From a bacterium (GTDB taxonomy: Bacteria > Lindowbacteria > 2-12-FULL-62-27): DNA of 13,626 nt. A program made the translations under genes and the position numbers. Below the pieces are notes generated by a model that saw only the letters and a list, made by a program, of their open reading frames with translations, ran no database searches and had not been told where the DNA came from. The stretch covers positions 1-13,626 of the forward strand of contig JACQOF010000002.1 of the NCBI GenBank assembly GCA_016202645.1. Reading direction: 5' to 3'. This document shows, piece by piece, positions 1 through 13,626 of this stretch. The stretch's first letter is position 1, and each line of letters begins with the position of its first letter.

Positions 1-931
1 GAATGAGACCGACGGTGTTGACCGGAAGAATCGACAGGCCGTAGGCCGCGAGGACCAGGGACACGACGCCGACGACGCCCGGCACGCCGACGCCGGGACT
101 GGAAAATTCAAAATAAATGCCGGCCATCGCCAGCAGAATCAGAACGTAGACGACGTTCGGGTCGGTTAGAAACGCCAGGATTTTTTCCTTCAGGCGCGGC
201 TCGACGCGGCGGATGTCGGGCGCCGATGGCGAGAGCGCGATGCGCCTCAGGGACCCGGCGCCGGTCAGGACCATCGTCTCGCCGCCGACCGCCTTCAGCA
301 GACTCTCGACGCTTTCCGCCTGAAGGTCGATCACTCCGCTGTCCAGCGCGGCCTGGTCCGTCAGGGACATGCTCTCGCGCACCGCCAATTCCGCGAACAC
401 GATGTTCCGGCCGCGGGTCTCCGCGATGGTCCGCGCCCACGCCGCGGCGTCGTTCTCGGCCTTCTGCTTCATGACATTGTCCATTTCCTTCCCGCCCAGC
501 ATCACGGGATGCGCCGCCCCAAGATGCGTGCCGGGGGCCATGGCGGCGATGTGCGCGGCGTAGGTGATGAACACGCCGGCCGACGCCGCCCGCGCTCCGG
601 CCGGACCAATCCAGACCAGGATGGGAATTTTCGAATTTAAAAACGAGGCGACGATCTGGCGGGTCGATTCGAGAAGCCCCCCCGGCGTGTCCAGCCGGAA
701 GAGGACTGCCTTCGCCTTGACCGTCTCCGCCTCCTTCAGGACGCGCGTCACAAACTCGGCCGTGACCGGCGTGATCGCCCGGTCCAGATCGGCGACGATG
801 ATGATATCGGATGGGGTCCGGTCCGTGGCCGCGTCGATGGCGCCGGACCAGAGGCAGGCAATACAGATGAGGATCAAACGCAAAGCATGCTGGATTCCCG
901 CTTTCGCGGGAATGACGGGGCTGCAGGTCAT
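1..931 (-). CDS. NfeD-family membrane-bound serine protease (ClpP-class), C-terminus beyond the window
   Basis: The 310 visible residues match long NfeD proteins, which are membrane proteases that cleave hydrophobic stretches of membrane proteins and are often linked to stomatin partners. A signal-like hydrophobic segment lies at about residues 18-34. A ClpP-like domain follows, with DTPGG at 81-85, the nucleophile Ser117 in AASAG, and Lys157 about 40 residues later, which fits the Ser-Lys dyad known from PH1510. Hydrophobic segments begin at about 259 (VVYVLILLAMAGIYFEF) and continue with a glycine-rich PGVGVPGVVGVV stretch into a second membrane segment. The remaining membrane segments and any OB-fold domain lie off the edge. 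The ATG at 931 lies six bases after a good -10 box. It puts the peptide VIPAKAGIQ, encoded by a dispersed palindrome, into the N-terminus. A TTG at about residue 17 is an alternative start. The gene diverges from the sensor kinase. No stomatin gene is visible. Confidence 0.88.
   Translation of the reverse strand, partial: MTCSPVIPAKAGIQHALRLILICIACLWSGAIDAATDRTPSDIIIVADLDRAITPVTAEFVTRVLKEAETVKAKAVLFRLDTPGGLLESTRQIVASFLNSKIPILVWIGPAGARAASAGVFITYAAHIAAMAPGTHLGAAHPVMLGGKEMDNVMKQKAENDAAAWARTIAETRGRNIVFAELAVRESMSLTDQAALDSGVIDLQAESVESLLKAVGGETMVLTGAGSLRRIALSPSAPDIRRVEPRLKEKILAFLTDPNVVYVLILLAMAGIYFEFSSPGVGVPGVVGVVSLVLAAYGLSILPVNTVGLI
890..917. repeat. dRS3-like dispersed palindrome (ATTCCC-N8-GGGAAT)
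   Basis: ATTCCC at 894-899 and GGGAAT at 908-913 flank the 8-bp GCTTTCGC. The core matches the Neisseria dRS3 consensus ATTCCC-N8-GGGAAT, and similar palindromes are scattered through many proteobacterial and environmental genomes. Only one copy is in this window. It lies inside the first codons of the minus-strand protease (as VIPAKAGIQ) and creates a false upstream start for the plus-strand kinase (MLDSRFRGND). Confidence 0.75.
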
Positions 932-937
932 GCCCGC

Positions 938-966
938 ATCATAATCGCGGCGGCATTAAAAATCAA
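938..966 (-). promoter_or_regulatory. Candidate sigma70-type promoter of the nfeD-like gene, leaderless geometry
   Basis: Read on the minus strand, TTGATT (966-961) is followed by a 17-bp spacer and TATGAT (943-938). Six bases (937-932) separate the -10 box from the ATG at 931, so the expected transcription start coincides with the start codon. No Shine-Dalgarno sequence fits in this space. This is a sequence match only. Confidence 0.5.
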
Positions 967-1012
967 GGACAGTTGCGAATGGGATGCGCGGTTGATAAAT
1001 TCGGGCTGGCGC

Positions 1013-2914
1013 ATGGTCACTTTTCCCAAACGCAGGTTGAGCGCGAAGCTGCTCAAAATTTCCATGTCGGTCGCGGTCCTTGTCGTCCTCCTGTTCGGGC
1101 TCAGCGTTTTTGTGCTCGAATTTCAGGCGGGCGTCCGCGAGGCCCAAAACCGGCAGGTCCAGAATTTCCATGAACTGGTCGACGGCTTTACCCGGGACGT
1201 CAAGCGCCGGCAGGGCCGCGTGATGCTCCTTGTCCATAACCGCCTTGCGCTCAACGCCGCCTACCAGAGCCTGAAACTGGCGCGAAAACCGGAGCCTTTC
1301 TTCGGGCCGGGCGTCCTGCGGTTCCATCTTATATATGGAGAGGAGACCCTCTCGGGCGGATCCGGCCCGGGGGATCTTCCGACTGCCGCCTCCGAATCCC
1401 GGCAGGCTGTTCTGAAAGTGGTCTCCCTTTCGGAGACCGCCGAAACCGCCGGACTTCTCTACGCCGCGCACTCGATGGACAGCGCCCGCCCGGTCTCGGT
1501 CCATGTCCTCTGGGACGTCTCGGACCTCCTGCCCCGGAAAGGCTGGGCCGGCGACGACCTGTTTCACGGAGTGACGGTGAGCGGGGAAGACGGCGCGGCC
1601 CTCTGGAAAACCTCGCCTTGGGAACCCGCGCCGACGGAATCAAAAGATCCGCTGAACATGCGGGAATTCATGTGGGAGGGAAAGTCATGGGTTGAACTGT
1701 CCAAGGAAATTCCGCTCTTTACCGATGTCACCCGTCTTCATGCCTTCTATCCCAGGGCCCTCCTTTACTCGCAGGCCTGGCGGACGAGCCGGCGGATCCT
1801 CTTTCGAACTCTGGTGCTCCTCGGTATTGGCCTCTCTCTGGTGGTTCTTCTGGCGATCTGGCTCCGGCAGGTCTTGAAGCCTCTCGATGACATCACCCAG
1901 GGCGTCAAGCGGATTTCGGAGGGGGATCGGGAGACGGTCCTCGATACCGGCGGCGAGGACGAAATAGCCTTCCTGGCGGAAACCCTCAACGACATGATTC
2001 ACCAGCTGAAGGTCAAGGAGCAGAGCGTGGAGGCGCACATCCGGCTCTTGAGCGAAAAAAACGAGGAACTCCGGCAGGTCACCGAACGGCTCAGGGAAGC
2101 GGACCAGCTCAAGGACCATTTCCTCGCGGTCCTGAGCCACGAACTTCGCACGCCCCTGACCGCCATCCTGGGTTACACGGAACTTTCCCTGGACGGCATC
2201 TACGGGCCGCTCAGCGAAAAGCAGAGGGAAATTTTGAGCTATGTTCAGAACAACGGGAGCAAACTCCTCGCGCTGATGGAGGACCTCCTCGACATTGCCA
2301 AGATCCGGGCGGGAACGATCGACGTCAACGTCGACGAGTTCCGGCTGGAGGAACTTGTTGACGACATCCGAAAGTTCATGGAAAATGCCCTCCGCCAGAA
2401 GCCGGACGTGAAATATGTGGAGGACGTTCAGACGGACAACATGGTCATGAAGACCGACCGGGTCAAGTTCGAACAGATCCTGACGAACCTGCTGTCCAAC
2501 GCCGTCAAATTCACGGAACGGGGTTCCGTGAAACTCAGCGTGCGCCCGGCGGACAGGGATGTCCAGTCCCCGGAGCTCCAGACTCGGGAAATCCCAGGAC
2601 GGGATTTCCTTCAATCCGCGAAGGGGGCGGGCCCGGGCCGGATTGTCTTCGAGGTCGAAGACACCGGCATCGGGATCGCGCCCCAGCACCTGCCGAAAAT
2701 TTTCGAGGCCTTCACCCAGCTGGATTCCACCATTCGCCGGAGGTACGGCGGCACGGGACTGGGATTGACCATTTGCAAGAGCCTGATTGAAAAACTGAGG
2801 GGGACGATCGAAGTCGAAAGCGAGCTCGGGATGGGATGCCGGTTCCGGGTGACACTGCCGACGACGTTTGATCCCGACAGCGCGCACAACAAACAGGAAG
2901 GCGGTCCCGCATGA
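1013..2914 (+). CDS. Membrane sensor histidine kinase (TM - sensor - TM - HAMP - HisKA - HATPase)
   Basis: This 633-residue kinase senses an unknown signal and should phosphorylate the response regulator that follows it. Membrane segments lie at about 14-37 and 264-285 and bracket an extracytoplasmic domain of about 225 residues that I do not recognise. A HAMP linker (about 287-338) and a coiled coil (about 340-365) lead to a HisKA domain with the phospho-acceptor His376 in LSHELRTP. The ATPase domain has the N box with Asn496 (TNLLSNAVKF), the G1 box DTGIGI from Asp550 and the G2 box GGTGLGL from Gly579. About 30 extra residues sit between the N box and G1. I chose the ATG at 1013 because it begins a normal basic N-terminus (MVTFPKRR). 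The open frame extends up to an ATG at 887, but that part is repeat-derived and intergenic sequence. No clear Shine-Dalgarno precedes 1013. The stop overlaps the regulator start. Confidence 0.93.
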   Translation: MVTFPKRRLSAKLLKISMSVAVLVVLLFGLSVFVLEFQAGVREAQNRQVQNFHELVDGFTRDVKRRQGRVMLLVHNRLALNAAYQSLKLARKPEPFFGPGVLRFHLIYGEETLSGGSGPGDLPTAASESRQAVLKVVSLSETAETAGLLYAAHSMDSARPVSVHVLWDVSDLLPRKGWAGDDLFHGVTVSGEDGAALWKTSPWEPAPTESKDPLNMREFMWEGKSWVELSKEIPLFTDVTRLHAFYPRALLYSQAWRTSRRILFRTLVLLGIGLSLVVLLAIWLRQVLKPLDDITQGVKRISEGDRETVLDTGGEDEIAFLAETLNDMIHQLKVKEQSVEAHIRLLSEKNEELRQVTERLREADQLKDHFLAVLSHELRTPLTAILGYTELSLDGIYGPLSEKQREILSYVQNNGSKLLALMEDLLDIAKIRAGTIDVNVDEFRLEELVDDIRKFMENALRQKPDVKYVEDVQTDNMVMKTDRVKFEQILTNLLSNAVKFTERGSVKLSVRPADRDVQSPELQTREIPGRDFLQSAKGAGPGRIVFEVEDTGIGIAPQHLPKIFEAFTQLDSTIRRRYGGTGLGLTICKSLIEKLRGTIEVESELGMGCRFRVTLPTTFDPDSAHNKQEGGPA

Positions 2915-3756
2915 GGGTTCTGGTCATTGACGACGATTTCCACATTCTCCGGATTGTCGAAGACCGCCTCAAGGCGGAGAACTTCGATGTTCTCAAGGCA
3001 TCCGACGGGATCGAGGGCCTCCGGCTCGTCTACGATTTCCATCCCGACGTCATCCTCCTCGACATCATGATGCCTACCATCGACGGCCATGCCGTCCTCC
3101 ACTGCTTGAAACGGGACGAAAAAATCAAGAATATACCGGTCATCATGATGACCGCCAAGCGCGAGCGCGTGGATGTGGTCCGGGCCGCGGAGGGCGGCGC
3201 GGCGGATTACATCGTCAAACCGATCGATTTCCGCCAGATGGTCAAGAAAATCTATGAAATGGCGCACGCCGTTCCGCCGCCGCCGAAGGAATCCCGGGGG
3301 GACATCAACGTCAAGTCAATGGCGGCGGATCTTGCCAACCTGTCTTACGAGATGGAAGCGGTTGCCCAGTCGGCCGGCGTGTCCGTGCCCCGGTCGGTCG
3401 TGCGGTCCAACGCCTTCAAGGTCGACGCCGAACTGAACGGAAATGTCGCGGTCCTGCGGCTGATGGGGCCGATCCAGAACGGGGATGTGGAACAGGTCAA
3501 GAACGAGATCAAGGCGATCACGGCCCGCGGCACGGGACGCTTCGTGCTTGACGGGTCGGGCCTGCAGAGCCTGGATCTGGCCGAGACGATGATCCTCCGG
3601 GACACGCTGGATTTCCTCGCTCTGAACCGGTGCATAGCCGTCCTCGTGGATGAGGACGCGAAACGAAGAAAATTCTTGAAGCAGTGCAAAATCCACCTGG
3701 ACTTCTCGCTCTTCGAGGACTCGGCCGCGGCCGTTAAATTCTTGCAAACTTCTTGA
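2911..3756 (+). CDS. Response regulator: receiver domain fused to a STAS-like domain
   Basis: A 281-residue two-domain protein. Residues 1-120 are a complete receiver with acidic pocket Asp7/Asp8, phospho-acceptor Asp51 (LLDIMMP), Thr81 and Lys103 (KPID). After a proline-rich linker (121-130), about 175-280 look like a STAS fold: a beta strand (NVAVLRLMGPI), a helix, a strand FVLDGSGL, a helix, then IAVLVDEDAKRR and a final FEDSAAAVKFL. STAS domains bind partner proteins in anti-sigma-antagonist switches. The usual phosphorylated Ser of LDxSxxxxxDSSG is not present here (LDGSGLQSLDLAETM), so control probably comes through the receiver. There is no DNA-binding domain, so the output is likely protein-protein contact. 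The start overlaps the kinase stop by ATGA and has an AGGAAG ribosome site at 2895-2900. The STAS assignment is by eye; the receiver is certain. Confidence 0.88.
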   Translation: MRVLVIDDDFHILRIVEDRLKAENFDVLKASDGIEGLRLVYDFHPDVILLDIMMPTIDGHAVLHCLKRDEKIKNIPVIMMTAKRERVDVVRAAEGGAADYIVKPIDFRQMVKKIYEMAHAVPPPPKESRGDINVKSMAADLANLSYEMEAVAQSAGVSVPRSVVRSNAFKVDAELNGNVAVLRLMGPIQNGDVEQVKNEIKAITARGTGRFVLDGSGLQSLDLAETMILRDTLDFLALNRCIAVLVDEDAKRRKFLKQCKIHLDFSLFEDSAAAVKFLQTS

Positions 3757-5712: not shown

Positions 5713-7110
5713 ATGCCTGAATTGACGGTTGACCAAATTCGAAAAATGCGGGAAGAATACCTGCTTCCCTCCACCATGACTTATTTCGAGAAGCCTGTGA
5801 ACATCGTCCGGGGCCAGATGCAGCACGTGTATGACGACCAGGGGAAAAAATACCTCGACGCGTTCAGCGCCGTCGTCACCATCAGCGTCGGGCACTGCCA
5901 CCCCGATGTCGTTCAGAAGATCCAGAGACAGGTGGCGGAACTTCAGCACATGACGACGCTCTACTACCATCCAAATGTCGTGAAATACGCGAAAAAAATG
6001 GCGGAAATGGCCGGCGGCGGCGGCCCTCTCAAGGTCAGTTTCTTTACGAACTCCGGATGTGAAGCCAACGAACTCGCCGCCATGCTTGCGAAAAATTTCA
6101 CGGGCCAGCAGGAGTTCATCGCGCTCCGGCATTCCTTCCACGGACGCACCCTCATGGCGATGACACTGACCGGCCAGTCCAGCTGGCGGCATTCGATGCC
6201 GTACGTGTTCGGCGTGACGCACGCGCCCGCCGCGTACTGCTACCGGTGCCCGCTCAAGCTCAAGTATCCCTCCTGCGGAATGGCCTGCGCGACGCAGGTG
6301 GAGGACATCATCAAGTACAACACCTCCGGAAAAATCGCCGGGCTGATCGCCGAACCCATCGCGGGATTCGGCGGCGTCATCCACCCGCCCGCGGAATATT
6401 TTCCGATCGTTTACGACATCGTGAAAAAGTACGGCGGAGTTTATATCTCGGACGAGGTCCAAACCGGCTTCGGCCGCACCGGAAAACACTTCTTCGGGAT
6501 TTCCCACTGGGGTGTCAAGCCGGATATCGTAACCATGGCCAAAGGCATCGGCAACGGCGTGCCGCTTGGCGGGATCATCACGACGCGGGCCGTCGCCGAT
6601 TCGATGCGGGGCAAGGTCCACTTCAACACCTATGGCGGCAACCCGGTTTCCATGGCCGCGGGGTTGGGGGTCCTCGAAGTCATCGAGCGGTATCGCATGG
6701 TTGAAAACGCCCAGACCGTCGGGTCCTACATGAAAGCCCGGCTCCAGCGCCTGATGAACCGCCACGCCCTGATCGGCGACGTGCGGGGACTCGGTCTCAT
6801 GCTTGGCGTGGAACTGGTGAAGAGCAGAAAAACGAAGGAAGTCGCTCCGCGCGAGACATTGCGGCTGATGGAACTTTGCAAGGACCGCGGACTTTTGATC
6901 GGCAAGGGCGGAATGGCGGGCAACGTCGTCCGGATCAAGCCGCCGATGTGTGTCCGCCAGCGGGACGCCGATTTCATCGTCGATGTCCTGGATGAATCCC
7001 TTGGCGCCCTCCAAAAGGAAAATCGCCGCGGTTCGAACGGGGAAAAAGCGGCCGCCCGCAAAAATGGACGGAACGCCCGCGGTAAAAAAATTCACGCCGC
7101 TGGGCGTTGA
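5713..7110 (+). CDS. Class III PLP-dependent aminotransferase (AGXT2-like)
   Basis: A 465-residue cytoplasmic aminotransferase of the class III (acetylornithine/omega-amino acid) family. The overall pattern is closest, by memory, to alanine-glyoxylate aminotransferase 2 and related bacterial enzymes. Visible landmarks are VGHCHP at 59-64, the cofactor-phosphate loop NSGCEANE at 113-120, HSFHGRT at 140-146, EPIAGFGG at 214-221, Asp247 in DEVQTGFGRTG (pairs with the pyridine nitrogen), Schiff-base Lys277 in MAKGIGNG, and Arg407 in VRIKPP. Four cysteines at 176, 179, 188 and 192 form a C-x2-C-x8-C-x3-C cluster in the loop after the cofactor-binding region. The last 30 residues are a basic, low-complexity tail beyond the family core. 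The amino donor cannot be read from the sequence. The 3' end overlaps the next gene by 47 bp. Whether it serves the cyclases functionally or is only a neighbour is unknown. Confidence 0.9.
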   Translation: MPELTVDQIRKMREEYLLPSTMTYFEKPVNIVRGQMQHVYDDQGKKYLDAFSAVVTISVGHCHPDVVQKIQRQVAELQHMTTLYYHPNVVKYAKKMAEMAGGGGPLKVSFFTNSGCEANELAAMLAKNFTGQQEFIALRHSFHGRTLMAMTLTGQSSWRHSMPYVFGVTHAPAAYCYRCPLKLKYPSCGMACATQVEDIIKYNTSGKIAGLIAEPIAGFGGVIHPPAEYFPIVYDIVKKYGGVYISDEVQTGFGRTGKHFFGISHWGVKPDIVTMAKGIGNGVPLGGIITTRAVADSMRGKVHFNTYGGNPVSMAAGLGVLEVIERYRMVENAQTVGSYMKARLQRLMNRHALIGDVRGLGLMLGVELVKSRKTKEVAPRETLRLMELCKDRGLLIGKGGMAGNVVRIKPPMCVRQRDADFIVDVLDESLGALQKENRRGSNGEKAAARKNGRNARGKKIHAAGR

Positions 7111-7645
7111 ACCGCATCCGAAGGGCCGCTCGGCTCTCCTCGGCATCTGCATGACCGCGCTTCTACTAGCGGGCTGTAAAAAAGAGGAATCCCCCGGCGG
7201 CCTCGCTCGTTTCCCCGAAACACCCCAGAGCGCAAGCGCCCCGCCGCTGTCCCAAAGAACTGAACCGGCCCTCGCGGTTCGCACCGAAGGAGGCGCGCGA
7301 AAACTTTTCATCCAGGGACTGCGGGCCGTCCGCTACAGGGATTTCCGCGCGGCCGCCGCCTTTTTTCAGGATGCGCGACAGCGGCATGGACTGCACGCCG
7401 GCGGCGAATCGGTGGACGAATTCGTCCATGGCTGTGAATTTTACATGGGCCGGGTGAATGAAGGACTCTTTCAGTTTGACGCGGCCAGAAATCAGTATGA
7501 CGGGATCCCCGCATCCAGCGCCTACCGGCCCTACGCCGCCGAACGGACCCTCGCCATCACCCGGGACTCGGACGGGGACGGCTACACGGACGCGTGGGAA
7601 GAGGCCGAAGGAACCCGGCCGGACAATCCGTTGTCACATCCCTGA
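7064..7645 (+). CDS. Small lipoprotein with TPR-like helices and a TSP3/EF-hand-type calcium loop
   Basis: A 193-residue protein of no family I can name. A basic n-region (KGR at 20-22) and hydrophobic core lead to the lipobox LLAGC, with Cys38 as the lipidated residue. Lys follows the Cys, which under E. coli Lol rules would favour the outer membrane. After a Pro/Ser-rich linker, 79-165 are helical and TPR-like (GARKLFIQGLRAVRYRDFRAAAAFF, split here by eye into helices at 79-87 and 92-103). The C-terminus, 168-189, holds DSDGDGYTDAWEE followed by GTRPDNP, the aspartate pattern of thrombospondin type 3 and related calcium-binding repeats. The ATG at 7064 lies within the aminotransferase gene. 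The frame is open further upstream, but that part is an aminotransferase shadow. The stop shares TGATG with the cyclase start, so the two are probably translationally coupled. It may bind or present a ligand to the extracytoplasmic cyclase domains (inference). Confidence 0.75.
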   Translation: MDGTPAVKKFTPLGVEPHPKGRSALLGICMTALLLAGCKKEESPGGLARFPETPQSASAPPLSQRTEPALAVRTEGGARKLFIQGLRAVRYRDFRAAAAFFQDARQRHGLHAGGESVDEFVHGCEFYMGRVNEGLFQFDAARNQYDGIPASSAYRPYAAERTLAITRDSDGDGYTDAWEEAEGTRPDNPLSHP

Positions 7646-10600
7646 TGGCTTCACCCAAACTCCCGGGCGCCCGGGCCGCCAGGTTTGCCGCATGGAAAAA
7701 ACATCTGCGGTCCCTGAAGATCGGACTCGGGATCGGTCTGGGGTGCGGGGTCGCCGTGATCCTTGCGGGGTTCATGAAAGAAGGATTTCTCGCCCGCGCT
7801 GAACTCCTGTCCCTCGATTGGCGATACCGCTCGCGCCCCCAGGTGCCTCTGCATCCCCAGGTGGGCAACATCAATTACGACGACGCGTCCCTGGCGCTTT
7901 TTGGCGCCTGGCCCTGGCCCCGCAGCCGCCAGGTGGCCCTGGTCACCGTCATGGATTTCTATGACGCCGGCGCCGTCGGATACGACGTTTTCTTCACCGA
8001 AAAAAACGACATCATCGTCGCAGACCGCCGGCTGAAGCGGTTCGTCCAGGACGTGTCGGCCGACAAGAACGCCGCCGCTGCGGAACGCGCCACTCACGTT
8101 TTGCGGACATCCATCCGGGACTACGACCGGGAATTCGCGAGGGCCATCGAGCAGGCCGGCAACATCTATCTCGGATGTTTTGTGGAGGAACCGGACAAGA
8201 TCATCGCCGACGGCGGAATCGAGGCCATCCGGAAATACATCGCGGAATACAAGCTGACTCCGAAGTGGCAGAAAAAGGCGGAGGCCGTTTTGGCGGCGGC
8301 CTCCTGCACCGTGCCCCTGACGCCCGAGCTTGAAAAAAGCCTCTTCAAAATGACCGACCTGACGGCGCCCCTGCCTGCGCTGACCCGGGCTTCCAGCGGC
8401 GTCGGATTCGCCCAGATCGCCAAGGATTTCGATCACACGGTGCGCCTCTATCCCCTCTTTCTGTACTTCGACGAGGCGGTCTATCCCTCCATCGTCTGCA
8501 TCATGATATCGAAAGTGGTGGATGTCCCGCTCGACCGCTGGGTGTTCAGGCCGGGAGAATATATCGAAATTCCGGATGCGAAAGAACCGGGCGCGGACAT
8601 GCGTCAGACGATCCGCATCCCGGTCAACTCCAATAACCAGATGCTCACCAACTGGGCGGGAAAATACGACGACATCTTTCTGCATCTGCCCTTCCACCTG
8701 GTCTCCGAGTATTACGCCTACTTCACCGCCAAACAAATCGCGCGGCAGGGCTACGCCGCCGCCGCGCCCGCAAGCCTCCCGGCGATCCGGCAGGATATCT
8801 ACGCCGCCATCGACGAGGAAAAAATGGTCACGGACGTGGCGGCCCACCGCATCGCGGAGGAAATCGCCGTCGCGCACGTCGCATCACCGCTCCTGCGCGC
8901 GGGCAAGTCTCCGTCGGATGTCCTGTCTCTCCTGCCGGCCGCGTCCCGCCCGGCGAATGCGGAGGCCACCCTCCAGGCGCTCGCCGCGGCTCTCGGGACG
9001 TCGAAGGACGACGCCGGGATCGACCCCGCCTGGAAAAAAGAAATTGAGAGAAACGTCGCCTGGTTTTCCGGCCGGGACCGTCTGGCCGACGTCGAGCCGC
9101 TCTTTTTTCCGCCGACCCGCCAAGTGCTCTGGAACGGCCGTTGGACCGAATTTTCTCCTGTCGACATCGAAAACAAGATTTTCATGGTCGGCCTGACCGG
9201 CGTCGGCACGATCGACCTGAATCCCATGCCCTTCGAGAGCGTCTCGCCCATGGTCGGCCTTCACACCAGCGCCCTCAACACTCTCCTGACCCGGCAGTTC
9301 CTGAAGTTTCCCGAGGAGGGATGGAGGTATCCGCTCGACCTGGCGTTCGCGCTCGTCACGGCCGTCGTCGGCGCCGTGACCACGCCTTTTATCGGATTTC
9401 TGTCGGTGCTCATGCTGATCGGCGCCTACAGCTATGCGGCCTACTGGGCCTTCGCGGCGCACGGCCAGTGGATCCCGTGGATCGAGCCGTGTCTTGCGGG
9501 ACTTCTGACGTTCGTGGTGATCGTGGTCTTCCATTTTATTGAGGCGGCCCGCGAAAAAGGCAAAGTCCGCGCGCTCTTCGCGGCGATGGTGTCCCCGGCC
9601 GTGTTGAAATTGATGGAGGAGAACCCGGACCGGTTTTCCCTCACGGGTGTCCGCAAACCGGGGACGATGCTTTTTTCGGCGATCGAGAAATTCGGCAAAG
9701 TCACCCAGGGCGTCGCGCCGGACGAACTCGGCGGGATCCTCAGCCTCTATCTCACGCCCACCAGCGAAATCATCATGGACTACCAGGGATACATCGACAA
9801 ATACGAAGGCCACGTCATCATGGCCGATTTCGGCGTGCCGCTTGACGACCCGGGACACCACTGGAAATGCAGTTACTCGGCGCTCGAACAACAGCAGGAC
9901 ATCGACGCCTTTCAGTTTTTCGTCAAGGCCCGCTACGGCGTCGACGTCTATGTGACCATGGGCGTCAATTCGGGGTACGTCTCCGCGGGGAACATGGGCT
10001 CGGAAAAGAAAATGCAGTACACCGTCATGGGCGACGCGGTCAACATGTCGGCGCGCTTCCGGCCGGCCAACCTCATCTACGACACGCGGATCATCATCGG
10101 CGAGGCCAGCATGCCGCTCGTCAAGGACTTTGTTGAAGTCCGCCTGCTCGACAAGCTTCTCGCCAAGGGCAAAACCATTCCGATCACCATCTATGAACTG
10201 CAGGGATGGCAGCCGAAGGCCTATCTCGACGTCAAAGGCGGCGACCCCATTCCGCCTTCGCTGACGACGCGATGGGCCAAGTGTCCGCCGGAAAAGATTT
10301 TCGGATATCAGCGGTTCTGGCACAACCGGGGCGGCGACTTCAACCATCCCCTCATCCCGAAAATCGCGCAGTTCTTCGAGTCCCAGACTCCCCTGGCCGA
10401 GGAACTCATCAAGCTTCAGGGGAGATATGATATCCAGAAATATTATGGTGACCTCCAGACCGTCCGGGAGGAAGCTTCGAAAATCGTCGGGCAGTCCGTC
10501 GACGGCGAGGATCCCGCGGGGAAATCCTGGGACGTCGTTCTCGATACGTGGGCCGCTTCCGGCCGCAAGATCGTCCAGGCGCTTGAGGAGAAACGATACC

Positions 10601-11133
10601 TCGCGGACATGATGAGCAAGGAAGACTATGCGTTCTACACGGCCGCGGTTTCGCGCGCGACGGCCGCCGCCAGCAAGCTTCAGAGCCTGAAGACCCGGCT
10701 CGCCTTCCATGCCGAGACGGAGTCAATCGTCGAACGGTTTATGGTGGACGTGCACGAAGCGGTCGAGCAGATCGCGTCGGGCCGCGGAGGCGCTCCGACG
10801 GTGGACGAGGCGCAGATGGAGGCCAAACGGGAGGAGTACCGGTCGAACGTGGGGACTTTCATCGGACAGCTTGATCCGAAAGAATATCACGAAATGATGG
10901 CCGTGGCCGGCACGGTGACGGACCGGCAGAAGCAGGCGCGGGAGCTGTTCGAGGCCGGCGTGCACCTTCAATGGGAGCGCCGTTGGGACGAGGCGCTGGC
11001 GAAATTTCGCGCCGTCCTGGACATCATCCCGGCCGACGGCCCCAGCAAGTCGTACATCGGTAGAGTGGAGGGCTACAAGACCGAGCCCCCGGGCGAAAAA
11101 TGGCAGGGCGAGTTCGTTCAGAAGAAGAAATAG
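7645..11133 (+). CDS. CHASE2-type class III cyclase homologue A, C2-like: keeps Asn/Arg, lacks metal aspartates
   Basis: A 1162-residue membrane receptor. A first membrane segment (about 26-44) precedes a CHASE2 sensor domain (about 50-552; GAWPWPRS at 87-94, a NWAGKY strand near 337, a MVGLTGVGTIDL strand near 514). This is enlarged by about 140 residues at 360-505. Membrane segments follow between about 564 and 634, then LFAAMVSPAVLKLM and a class III cyclase domain (about 670-825). The metal aspartates are replaced by Ala679 (MLFSAIEKF) and His723 (DKYEGHVIMADFG). Lys719, Thr793, Asn800 and Arg804 (YTVMGDAVNMSAR) are kept. As a homodimer it should be inactive; with cyclase B it can supply the purine-binding and transition-state residues. 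The C-terminal 330 residues end in a TPR-like ARELFEAGVHLQWERRWDEA and PPGEKW, usual in CHASE2 cyclases. The start at 7645 overlaps the lipoprotein stop. Confidence 0.93.
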   Translation: MASPKLPGARAARFAAWKKHLRSLKIGLGIGLGCGVAVILAGFMKEGFLARAELLSLDWRYRSRPQVPLHPQVGNINYDDASLALFGAWPWPRSRQVALVTVMDFYDAGAVGYDVFFTEKNDIIVADRRLKRFVQDVSADKNAAAAERATHVLRTSIRDYDREFARAIEQAGNIYLGCFVEEPDKIIADGGIEAIRKYIAEYKLTPKWQKKAEAVLAAASCTVPLTPELEKSLFKMTDLTAPLPALTRASSGVGFAQIAKDFDHTVRLYPLFLYFDEAVYPSIVCIMISKVVDVPLDRWVFRPGEYIEIPDAKEPGADMRQTIRIPVNSNNQMLTNWAGKYDDIFLHLPFHLVSEYYAYFTAKQIARQGYAAAAPASLPAIRQDIYAAIDEEKMVTDVAAHRIAEEIAVAHVASPLLRAGKSPSDVLSLLPAASRPANAEATLQALAAALGTSKDDAGIDPAWKKEIERNVAWFSGRDRLADVEPLFFPPTRQVLWNGRWTEFSPVDIENKIFMVGLTGVGTIDLNPMPFESVSPMVGLHTSALNTLLTRQFLKFPEEGWRYPLDLAFALVTAVVGAVTTPFIGFLSVLMLIGAYSYAAYWAFAAHGQWIPWIEPCLAGLLTFVVIVVFHFIEAAREKGKVRALFAAMVSPAVLKLMEENPDRFSLTGVRKPGTMLFSAIEKFGKVTQGVAPDELGGILSLYLTPTSEIIMDYQGYIDKYEGHVIMADFGVPLDDPGHHWKCSYSALEQQQDIDAFQFFVKARYGVDVYVTMGVNSGYVSAGNMGSEKKMQYTVMGDAVNMSARFRPANLIYDTRIIIGEASMPLVKDFVEVRLLDKLLAKGKTIPITIYELQGWQPKAYLDVKGGDPIPPSLTTRWAKCPPEKIFGYQRFWHNRGGDFNHPLIPKIAQFFESQTPLAEELIKLQGRYDIQKYYGDLQTVREEASKIVGQSVDGEDPAGKSWDVVLDTWAASGRKIVQALEEKRYLADMMSKEDYAFYTAAVSRATAAASKLQSLKTRLAFHAETESIVERFMVDVHEAVEQIASGRGGAPTVDEAQMEAKREEYRSNVGTFIGQLDPKEYHEMMAVAGTVTDRQKQARELFEAGVHLQWERRWDEALAKFRAVLDIIPADGPSKSYIGRVEGYKTEPPGEKWQGEFVQKKK

Positions 11134-11136
11134 CAG

Positions 11137-13626
11137 ATGGCTGAGCAGGCAAAATCCAAATCGAAACTCGGGACGGCCAAGGCCGCGGTCATCGCGCTCT
11201 GCGGCGCGCTTTTCGTCTCGATCCTCTCGGGACTTGGGCTCCTCGAAAAACTTGAGTTCTTCACCTCGGACCTCCGGTATGTCACCCGGCCGGCCATCGA
11301 GACGGATACGTCCATCTACACGATCGACATCGACGATCCGTCCATCGAGCAGATCGGGCGCTGGCCCTGGACGTGGGACCGCCACGCCGCGATCCTCGAC
11401 ATGCTCCGGCTCTACGGCGCCCGCCAGGCGGCATTTGTCGAACCTTATTTCAACGAACCGGGCCCGATTACAGTTCAGCGGGACCAGGCCAGACAGATCG
11501 CCCTCAGCGTCACGCAGATGGCCCGCGGGTCCGGCGAGGTCGACTATCGCCAGGAACTGAGCGGCCTCATTCCGGATTACAACGACCGGTTCATCGACGC
11601 GGTGGGAAAATTCCCCCGGACATTCATCGGAACGCATTTCGCGATTCCCGAGGGAGCGGCCGTGGAGGACCCGAAGAAAATTCGGGCGCAGGCCGAATCC
11701 AACAAACGTAATTTTTCCAGAGACAAAAATGAGGCGCACGCGTCCCTCGATACATTTTCCGTCGCCTGGCGGGATCCCGGATCTCTCCTCCTGGCAACCG
11801 ACATCGTCCCCATCACCGCCGCCCTCTCCCGCAACATCGCCGGCGCCGGATTTTCGCGGATCGTTCAGGATATCGACGGCAAAGTCCGGCGCACGCCGCT
11901 GCTCGTGTGGTACGACGGCCGCGCCCATCCCAGCATCGGCCTTTCCATGGCCGCCGCATATTTCGGGTGCGCCCTTCAGGACCTCAAGATCGAGCCGGGC
12001 AAGTATATCGAAATTCCCGGGAAGGACCGGACCGTGCGCGTGCCCATTGACGAAAAAGGGTATATGCTCGTCAACTGGGCTGGCGAATACCAGAAGACGT
12101 TCAACCACACGCTGTACAACGTGATCGCCCTTCACTATATGCACCGGACCGCCAAGGCCTTCATCCGGCAGTACCGGCCGGATTTGGATAATCCCAACGA
12201 GGTATTTCAAAAACTCGGGGAATTCATGATGCGCCAGCAGATGCTGCCGGCGGAGGACGTCCAATGGATTGCGACGCAGATATATTACGTTTGGATCATG
12301 GACTTTTTCATGGAACGGGGCGCGGCCTACGACATCTTCCTCAGAAGCACGGGCCTTGAGGATGATCCCTCCTTCTTGTTTTACTGGAACCAGATTTCCG
12401 TCAACCGGCGGGTCGAGGAGGTCATGCGGTCGAACCAGACTCCGGATTATTCGGCTGTCCTCTTCAGCCTCAGCATTCCCGACACCGACATCTATCGCGA
12501 CGGATTCGACCATACGGCGTTCTTTTACCGGAACGGCCGCATCAACGAAGTCCGCCCGCTCTTTTTTCTCGAGCCCAGCGTCATCGCGATCAGCGGCGGC
12601 GAGATCCGGTTCTCGCCGCTGGACCTGCACGACAAAAGCGTTTTCGTCGGGCTCACCGCCACGGGACTCAACGCGCAAAACCCCACGCCCTACCAGCGCC
12701 GCTACCAGATGTTCGGCCTCATTCCGAACGTCTACAACACGATCGCCACCGGCCAATTCCTCCGCGCCCAGGCGCCGTGGATGCGGTATGTCTATATCCT
12801 TTTCTATGCGCTCGCCATCACCTGGATCGTCCTCCACTTTCGGCCCCTCGGCGGCCTCGCCGTCGTCCTCCTGACGTCCGGCCTTCACTTCGCCTGCGCC
12901 TGGGCCGCGTTCGTCGGCGTCGGCGTCATCATGCCCGTTGTGCCGCCCGTCCTGACGGTGATTGTGTGCTACGTGGCGGCCAATCTCTACCGGTACGTCG
13001 AGGAACAGCGGGAGCGGCAGAAAGTCCGCGGGCTGTTTGGCGCGATGGTGTCGCCGCAGGTCTTGAAAATGATGGAGGACAATCCCGACAAGTTCGCGCT
13101 GGGGGGAGAAAAATACGAGGCGACGATGTTTTCCTCCGACGTGTCGGGATTCACGACCATCTCCGAGGGCGTGACGGCGCAGGAACTCGCGGACATTCTG
13201 AACATCTATCTCACCCCCATGAGCAACATCATCATGAATTTCGACGGCTTCGTCGACAAATACGAAGGCGACGCCATCAAGGCCGACTATGGGGTCCCCC
13301 TGGCCGATCCGAACCACGCTTGGAAAGGGTGTTTCGCGGCGCTCCTTCAGCAGGAGGACCTGAGCGTGGTCCAGCGCCTCCTGCTTCTGAAATACGGCGT
13401 GAAAATCACCGCGCGCATGGGCGTGAACACCGGCATCGTCGCGGCCGGGAACAAGGGCTCGGAGAAGAAGCGGCAGTACACCGTGATGGGCGAGGCCGTG
13501 ACCATCGCCGAGGAACTCGAGCCGATCAACAAGCTCTACGAAAGCTGGATCGCCATCGGAGCGCTGACCTATGAAAAGTCCGCGGACTACGTCGACGTGC
13601 GCCTCCTGGACCGCGCGGCCATGGGC
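11137..13626 (+). CDS. CHASE2-type class III cyclase homologue B, C1-like: keeps metal aspartates, lacks Asn/Arg (partial)
   Basis: The first 830 residues of a second CHASE2 cyclase, three bases after the stop of cyclase A and a clear paralogue of it. A membrane segment (about 14-33) precedes a CHASE2 domain (about 38-545; GRWPWTWD near 74-81, VNWAGEY near 312, VFVGLTATG near 498). This carries an extra helical stretch of about 150 residues at 335-490, in the same place as in A. Membrane segments lie at about 551-617, then LFGAMVSPQVLKMMEDNP and the cyclase domain from about 660. Both metal aspartates are present, Asp668 (SSDVSGFT) and Asp712 (DKYEGDAI), with Lys708 and Thr782. The Asn and Arg positions read Thr789 and Glu793 (GEAVTIAEELE). 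It should bind metal-ATP but fail as a homodimer. The C-terminus, probably including a TPR tail, is beyond the window. Confidence 0.93.
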   Translation, partial: MAEQAKSKSKLGTAKAAVIALCGALFVSILSGLGLLEKLEFFTSDLRYVTRPAIETDTSIYTIDIDDPSIEQIGRWPWTWDRHAAILDMLRLYGARQAAFVEPYFNEPGPITVQRDQARQIALSVTQMARGSGEVDYRQELSGLIPDYNDRFIDAVGKFPRTFIGTHFAIPEGAAVEDPKKIRAQAESNKRNFSRDKNEAHASLDTFSVAWRDPGSLLLATDIVPITAALSRNIAGAGFSRIVQDIDGKVRRTPLLVWYDGRAHPSIGLSMAAAYFGCALQDLKIEPGKYIEIPGKDRTVRVPIDEKGYMLVNWAGEYQKTFNHTLYNVIALHYMHRTAKAFIRQYRPDLDNPNEVFQKLGEFMMRQQMLPAEDVQWIATQIYYVWIMDFFMERGAAYDIFLRSTGLEDDPSFLFYWNQISVNRRVEEVMRSNQTPDYSAVLFSLSIPDTDIYRDGFDHTAFFYRNGRINEVRPLFFLEPSVIAISGGEIRFSPLDLHDKSVFVGLTATGLNAQNPTPYQRRYQMFGLIPNVYNTIATGQFLRAQAPWMRYVYILFYALAITWIVLHFRPLGGLAVVLLTSGLHFACAWAAFVGVGVIMPVVPPVLTVIVCYVAANLYRYVEEQRERQKVRGLFGAMVSPQVLKMMEDNPDKFALGGEKYEATMFSSDVSGFTTISEGVTAQELADILNIYLTPMSNIIMNFDGFVDKYEGDAIKADYGVPLADPNHAWKGCFAALLQQEDLSVVQRLLLLKYGVKITARMGVNTGIVAAGNKGSEKKRQYTVMGEAVTIAEELEPINKLYESWIAIGALTYEKSADYVDVRLLDRAAMG

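Follow-up and report, generated by a model that had tools for sequence, protein, structure and literature searches.

Genes A and B, which adjoin each other in the DNA stretch analysed here (the window, 13,626 nucleotides), very probably each encode one subunit of a membrane-bound adenylyl cyclase that is an obligate two-gene heterodimer. The split of the active-site residues between the two chains, its conservation, the tandem layout of the genes and the separate origins of such pairs are observed directly, and dimerisation, activity and ATP as the substrate are inferred.

Gene layout and domain composition

The window corresponds to the entire contig C16 of a 2.9-Mb draft genome, among whose nearest named relatives are the Candidatus Lindowbacteria entries MFPR01000001 (69% identity to B) and JAHFCY010000131 (62% identity). 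The two genes and their domains are located as follows.

7645..11133, forward strand: gene A (ORF, Pfam), 1162 amino acids, with CHASE2, three transmembrane helices, a class III cyclase domain (C2-like half) and a C-terminal region of about 300 amino acids
7756..8697, forward strand: CHASE2 extracytoplasmic sensor region of A (Pfam best stretch, PF05226, E 7e-29)
9664..10068, forward strand: class III cyclase domain of A (Pfam stretch, PF00211, E 8.8e-9)
11137..13626 and past the window end, forward strand: gene B, with CHASE2, a transmembrane part and a class III cyclase domain (C1-like half)
11209..12102, forward strand: CHASE2 extracytoplasmic sensor region of B (Pfam best stretch, PF05226, E 4e-31)
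13117..13521, forward strand: class III cyclase domain of B (Pfam stretch, PF00211, E 1.7e-9)

The genes lie on the same strand with a gap of 3 bp (TAG CAG ATG). B is cut by the contig end and is completed to 1158 amino acids by contig C69. In both proteins the Guanylate_cyc domain scores above the Pfam cut-off, and the PDB sequence matches of both cyclase domains include class III enzymes. A and B meet the criterion for a CHASE2 receptor cyclase, namely an N-terminal CHASE2 domain followed by a transmembrane part and a cyclase domain; CHASE2 and Guanylate_cyc were assigned by Pfam, the transmembrane helices as well as the C-terminal region of A from the sequence alone. AlphaFold2 models of the single cyclase domains of A and B, calculated with six-sequence alignments, reached a mean pLDDT of 45 and 51, respectively, and are too poor to interpret.

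The C-terminal extensions of about 300 amino acids (in A at 10261–11130, in B on contig C69) can be aligned with each other and have no Pfam match; their final 50 residues resemble TPR. They are present in the orthologous pairs described below as group i and absent in group iii. Upstream, the start codon of A overlaps the stop codon of a gene for a lipoprotein-like protein (TGATG at 7643–7647). This protein (6950–7645) carries a bacterial TSP3 repeat of the calcium-binding type, its gene adjoins A in genome G001 as well, and within Lindowbacteria it is a candidate for a third component. That the operon has a conserved third partner was rejected, as the lipoprotein-like gene and an aminotransferase gene are common to the window and G001 only; the contig of G002 ends too soon upstream to judge either. 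In the other two phyla of group i the flanks have no gene in common with the window except response-regulator-type matches in G135. Elsewhere in the window (887–3756) genes for a histidine kinase and for a response regulator whose C-terminus is weakly STAS-like overlap by 4 bp; downstream of them, genes encode a phosphate transporter of the Pit type and a PhoU-like protein (DUF47).

Catalytic residues are divided between A and B

The active site of class III cyclases lies between two domains (PMC3591389, PMC8815786). In soluble guanylyl cyclase it is split between subunits, with D486, D530 and R574 in alpha and R552 and K593 in beta (PMC3591389). The corresponding positions of A and B, numbered from ATG 7645 and ATG 11137, respectively, are listed below, all on the forward strand.

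9679..9681: A679 (GCG) of A, replacing the first metal-binding Asp (codon check; A/S/W/M across orthologues)
9799 (codon start): K719 of A, base-binding Lys
9811..9813: H723 (CAC) of A, replacing the second metal-binding Asp (His in 7/7 orthologues)
9955..9957: T771 of A, replacing the C1-type Arg (equivalent of sGC alpha R574)
10021 (codon start): T793 of A, base-binding Thr
10042..10056: N800 (codon 10042) and R804 (codon 10054) of A, transition-state Asn and Arg, intact
10165..10167: K841 of A, triphosphate Lys (equivalent of sGC beta K593), intact; lost in B orthologues
13138..13140: D668 (GAC) of B, first metal-binding Asp, intact
13258 (codon start): K708 of B, base-binding Lys
13270..13272: D712 (GAC) of B, second metal-binding Asp, intact
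13414..13416: R760 of B, C1-type (metal-side) Arg, intact
13480 (codon start): T782 of B, base-side Thr
13501..13515: T789 (ACC, 13501) to E793 (GAA, 13513) of B, T-I-A-E-E replacing N-x-x-S-R

The equivalents of alpha R574 and beta K593 were placed by their position in the motifs of soluble guanylyl cyclase and adenylyl cyclases.

With complete cyclases as alignment reference, A is without both metal-binding aspartates and B without the transition-state asparagine and arginine. The sequence-only reading had named A679, H723, N800 and R804 of A and D668, D712, T789 and E793 of B, and each of them is found at its codon, as are the Lys and Thr that it had assigned to the purine positions of both chains (K719/T793 and K708/T782). 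The reciprocal losses it had described are borne out and extend further, the metal-side Arg being present only in B and the phosphate Lys only in A, so that three residues of the C1 kind are confined to B and three of the C2 kind to A. The base-binding Lys is kept in both chains, and the Thr is kept in A and replaced by Ser in three B orthologues. Neither chain has all the residues that serve metal binding, base binding, the transition state and the phosphates, a set completed only by both chains together; these reciprocal half-sites agree with the earlier proposal that a single complete site would be obtained from A and B together.

In the predicted productive site, D668, D712 and R760 would be contributed by B, and K719, T793, N800, R804 and K841 by A. 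Only the A-B dimer would unite metal ligands, base pocket, Asn, Arg and Lys, and it would do so in one site. In the pseudo-symmetric second site, H723 of A and E793 of B would stand in place of a catalytic Asp and Arg, and no catalysis is expected there. An adenylyl-type base pocket of Lys and Thr is found in A, the half bearing Asn and Arg, in 7/7 orthologues; ATP is the substrate predicted by this pocket, and the product is inferred only.

An error of sequencing or assembly at the named codons, which would have undone this assignment, can be excluded in practice. The last 300 bp or so of the window are covered again by contig C69, with T789 and E793 present in both, and six further genomes, obtained independently, show the same residue pattern as A and B of the window. 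The one difference that could be held in favour of an error is found between the window end and C69 at residue 773 of B (13453–13455), which is Lys in the window and Met in C69 (L044) as well as in relatives; two further differences close by are silent. The Lys/Met difference represents either strain variation or a contig-end error, and no catalytic codon is affected.

Conservation in orthologous pairs

Whether homologous pairs retain the reciprocal pattern had been put forward as a decisive check. It is retained in 7/7 orthologous pairs (group i: window, G001, G002, G069, G098, G135 and G271), and in addition in 12 pairs of two unrelated groups described below. The pairs of group i occur in every genome examined of three phyla, i.e. 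3/3 (window, G001, G002), 2/2 (G069, G098) and 2/2 (G135, G271). In all seven A proteins the first Asp is replaced by A, S, W or M, the second Asp by His and the Arg by T, A, S or M, with N, R and K kept. All seven B proteins keep D, D and R, with Thr or Ala for Asn and Glu for Arg. A retains the phosphate Lys in 7/7 pairs, and B has Gly or His instead in 6/6 cases where the position is covered; the B of the window stops before it and is not counted.

The altered motif AEELE of B and the motif DKYEGH of A are identical in all seven pairs, and the degenerate half-sites are thus themselves conserved and not decaying. For the catalytic domains of A and B within Lindowbacteria, dN is about 0.08–0.16 as opposed to a dS of about 0.65–0.92, indicating purifying selection.

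Recurrence in other tandem CHASE2 cyclase pairs

Some 90 further CHASE2-cyclase matches were surveyed together with their surroundings, and their catalytic positions were tabulated. Together with group i this yields 19 reciprocal tandem pairs, not all of them independent. Group ii comprises 7/7 genomes examined of another phylum (G122, G258, G384, G386–G389), four of which belong to one genus and are 97–98% alike; its upstream gene has M or L at the first and H, A or S at the second Asp position, and its downstream gene E or D for Asn and His for Arg. In group iii, the pairs of G019, G424 and G167 have S and E for the two Asp, and I for Asn and E for Arg in the partner. In two further pairs of this group, from G413 (L221) and G486 (L222), the upstream gene has lost the first Asp only and its partner Asn and Arg, which is possibly an earlier stage of the split.

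All 19 domains deficient in Asp retain N and R, and all 19 domains deficient in N and R retain both Asp. Every pair is arranged in tandem on one strand with the Asp-less gene upstream, an order that could be due to chance, since only three origins are involved. The residue preceding the lost Arg is Glu in 19/19 of the NR-less domains and in 0/81 of the complete ones, where it is Ser, Ala or Gln. The full D, D, N, R set is present in 81 other CHASE2-cyclase domains, and among the CHASE2-cyclase domains examined no orphan half without a partner gene was found, each deficient domain belonging to a tandem reciprocal pair. As judged from this distribution, the residue losses are not due to chance.

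The same distribution bears on the possibility that A and B each form homodimers with substitute residues, their pattern reflecting nothing but the divergence of paralogues. Such homodimers would be in keeping with the base-pocket Lys in both chains and with the full metal site of B. Nevertheless, this possibility appears very unlikely, because an A-A dimer would hold no metal-binding Asp at all (absent from A in 7/7 pairs), and because the 81 unpaired or other domains are complete and losses are seen only beside an adjacent partner gene. Some class III cyclases with non-canonical residues do function as homodimers, and residual B-B activity cannot therefore be excluded.

Origins of the split

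In catalytic-domain trees the two halves of each group form neighbouring clades, the three groups lie apart from each other, and groups i and iii adjoin complete single-copy cyclases. The closest unpaired relatives (G003, G055 and G329) have the full residue set. By the AU test, a single clade of all C1-like halves (p 8e-98) and a single clade of all C2-like halves (p 5e-4) were rejected, as was a common origin of either half for any two groups, with p values ranging from 2.5e-5 down to 3e-54. The alignment included the shared degenerate positions; these can only favour grouping, so that the rejection is conservative. With a common origin rejected for each combination of two groups, the split has arisen three times or more. 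Separate origins could be mimicked by gene conversion between neighbouring genes, which is not excluded, although it would need to spare the split positions every time.

A and B are sisters in the tree, with bacterial CHASE2 cyclases next to them. This placement, in a tree without animal sequences, argues for an origin separate from that of the animal C1/C2 and alpha/beta halves. The A/B pair would have been derived from a homodimeric CHASE2 cyclase whose gene was duplicated in tandem, the two copies then losing complementary residues.

It remains conceivable, if improbable, that both A and B are pseudoenzymes, in which the cyclase domains have been kept for dimerisation or nucleotide sensing and no cyclic nucleotide is made. 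Each chain alone is without essential residues, and the conservation of His and Glu in the second site implies that non-catalytic roles exist. A loss of catalysis predicts decay, however, yet the exact complementary set is kept in 19/19 pairs of three origins. An obligate A-B heterodimer is a very strong inference from these data, and an inference it stays in the absence of data on physical dimerisation and activity.

Comparison to known heterodimeric and homodimeric cyclases

The parallel to animal C1/C2 and to soluble guanylyl cyclase alpha/beta, already drawn in the sequence-only reading, gains support from the C1-type Arg and the C2-type Lys, which are split as in the animal heterodimers. 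As in A/B, mammalian transmembrane adenylyl cyclases carry Asp, Asp and Arg in one domain and Lys, Asn, Arg and Lys in the other, and they are membrane bound with one active and one degenerate site, as proposed for A-B. The AC5 C1 chains (1azs_A, 1cjk_A) occur in the PDB match list of B and are absent from that of A. The mammalian enzymes are, however, single fused chains with two six-helix membrane blocks, whereas A and B are bacterial and encoded by two genes, each with CHASE2 and a membrane part of its own. Soluble guanylyl cyclase resembles A/B in its separate homologous subunits and split site (PMC3591389). It is a eukaryotic, soluble enzyme with a haem sensor and GTP as substrate, in contrast to the membrane location, CHASE2 sensors and ATP-predicting Lys/Thr pocket of A/B.

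The NeoR/RGC rhodopsin cyclases of chytrid fungi are obligate heterodimers encoded by two genes, each subunit having its own sensor, as is proposed for A/B, but RGC1 and RGC2 retain all catalytic residues (PMC8815786), and their heterodimerisation is consequently not forced by split sites. Among bacterial enzymes, CyaD1, CyaD2 and CyaK of Sinorhizobium meliloti share the CHASE2 and class III cyclase layout, and the accessible part of the report on them describes no reciprocal split (PMC13001267); their sequences lie outside the present comparison. Mycobacterial Rv1625c (Cya), likewise a membrane-bound enzyme of class III, also forms its site at the dimer interface (PMC9433096), but its dimer consists of identical chains and has two equal sites (PMC9552081). 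Reviews treat the class III cyclases of bacteria as homodimerising monomers and fused dimeric species as unknown there (PMC9552081; also PMC4886424). As to the latter statement (PMC9552081), contig C84 of the genome studied here encodes a 1287-amino-acid chain (L045:1708-5568, reverse strand) with two cyclase domains followed by an AAA ATPase and TPR, a layout equal to that of mammalian soluble adenylyl cyclase; its second domain has Asn at the first metal position.

Neither a bacterial two-gene cyclase heterodimer nor a CHASE2 heterodimer was found in the literature searched, which does not cover most subscription journals, in line with the earlier statement that no bacterial two-receptor version with CHASE2 sensors was known. 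Split sites as such are already known from animal transmembrane cyclases and soluble guanylyl cyclase; judged by these searches, the bacterial two-gene case appears to be new.

Implications for signalling and evolution

Each subunit of the proposed A-B heterodimer would place a CHASE2 sensor outside the cell, connected by three transmembrane helices to a cytoplasmic cyclase domain. With CHASE2 on each chain, two signals or one asymmetric ligand could be sensed, an inference from the layout. A regulatory role has been proposed for the pseudo-symmetric sites of animal cyclases (PMC3591389). The second site of A-B may by inference serve an allosteric or structural purpose as well, comparable to the forskolin site of these enzymes. 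The genome contains 24 cNMP-binding domain matches, which could respond to cAMP.

Taken together, it is likely that tandem duplicates of CHASE2 receptors have given rise in bacteria, at least three times independently, to adenylyl cyclases that are obligate two-gene heterodimers, with two different sensor subunits per active site and a second site that is conserved, does not catalyse and may bind a regulator. With at least three bacterial origins, the split-site step behind the asymmetric adenylyl and guanylyl cyclases of animals would be no eukaryotic invention but a repeatable one. The pairs of group iii with a single Asp loss, as a possible earlier stage, open the order of the losses to study, and with two receptor subunits per active site it becomes testable whether the asymmetry serves the sensing of two signals or an allosteric second site.
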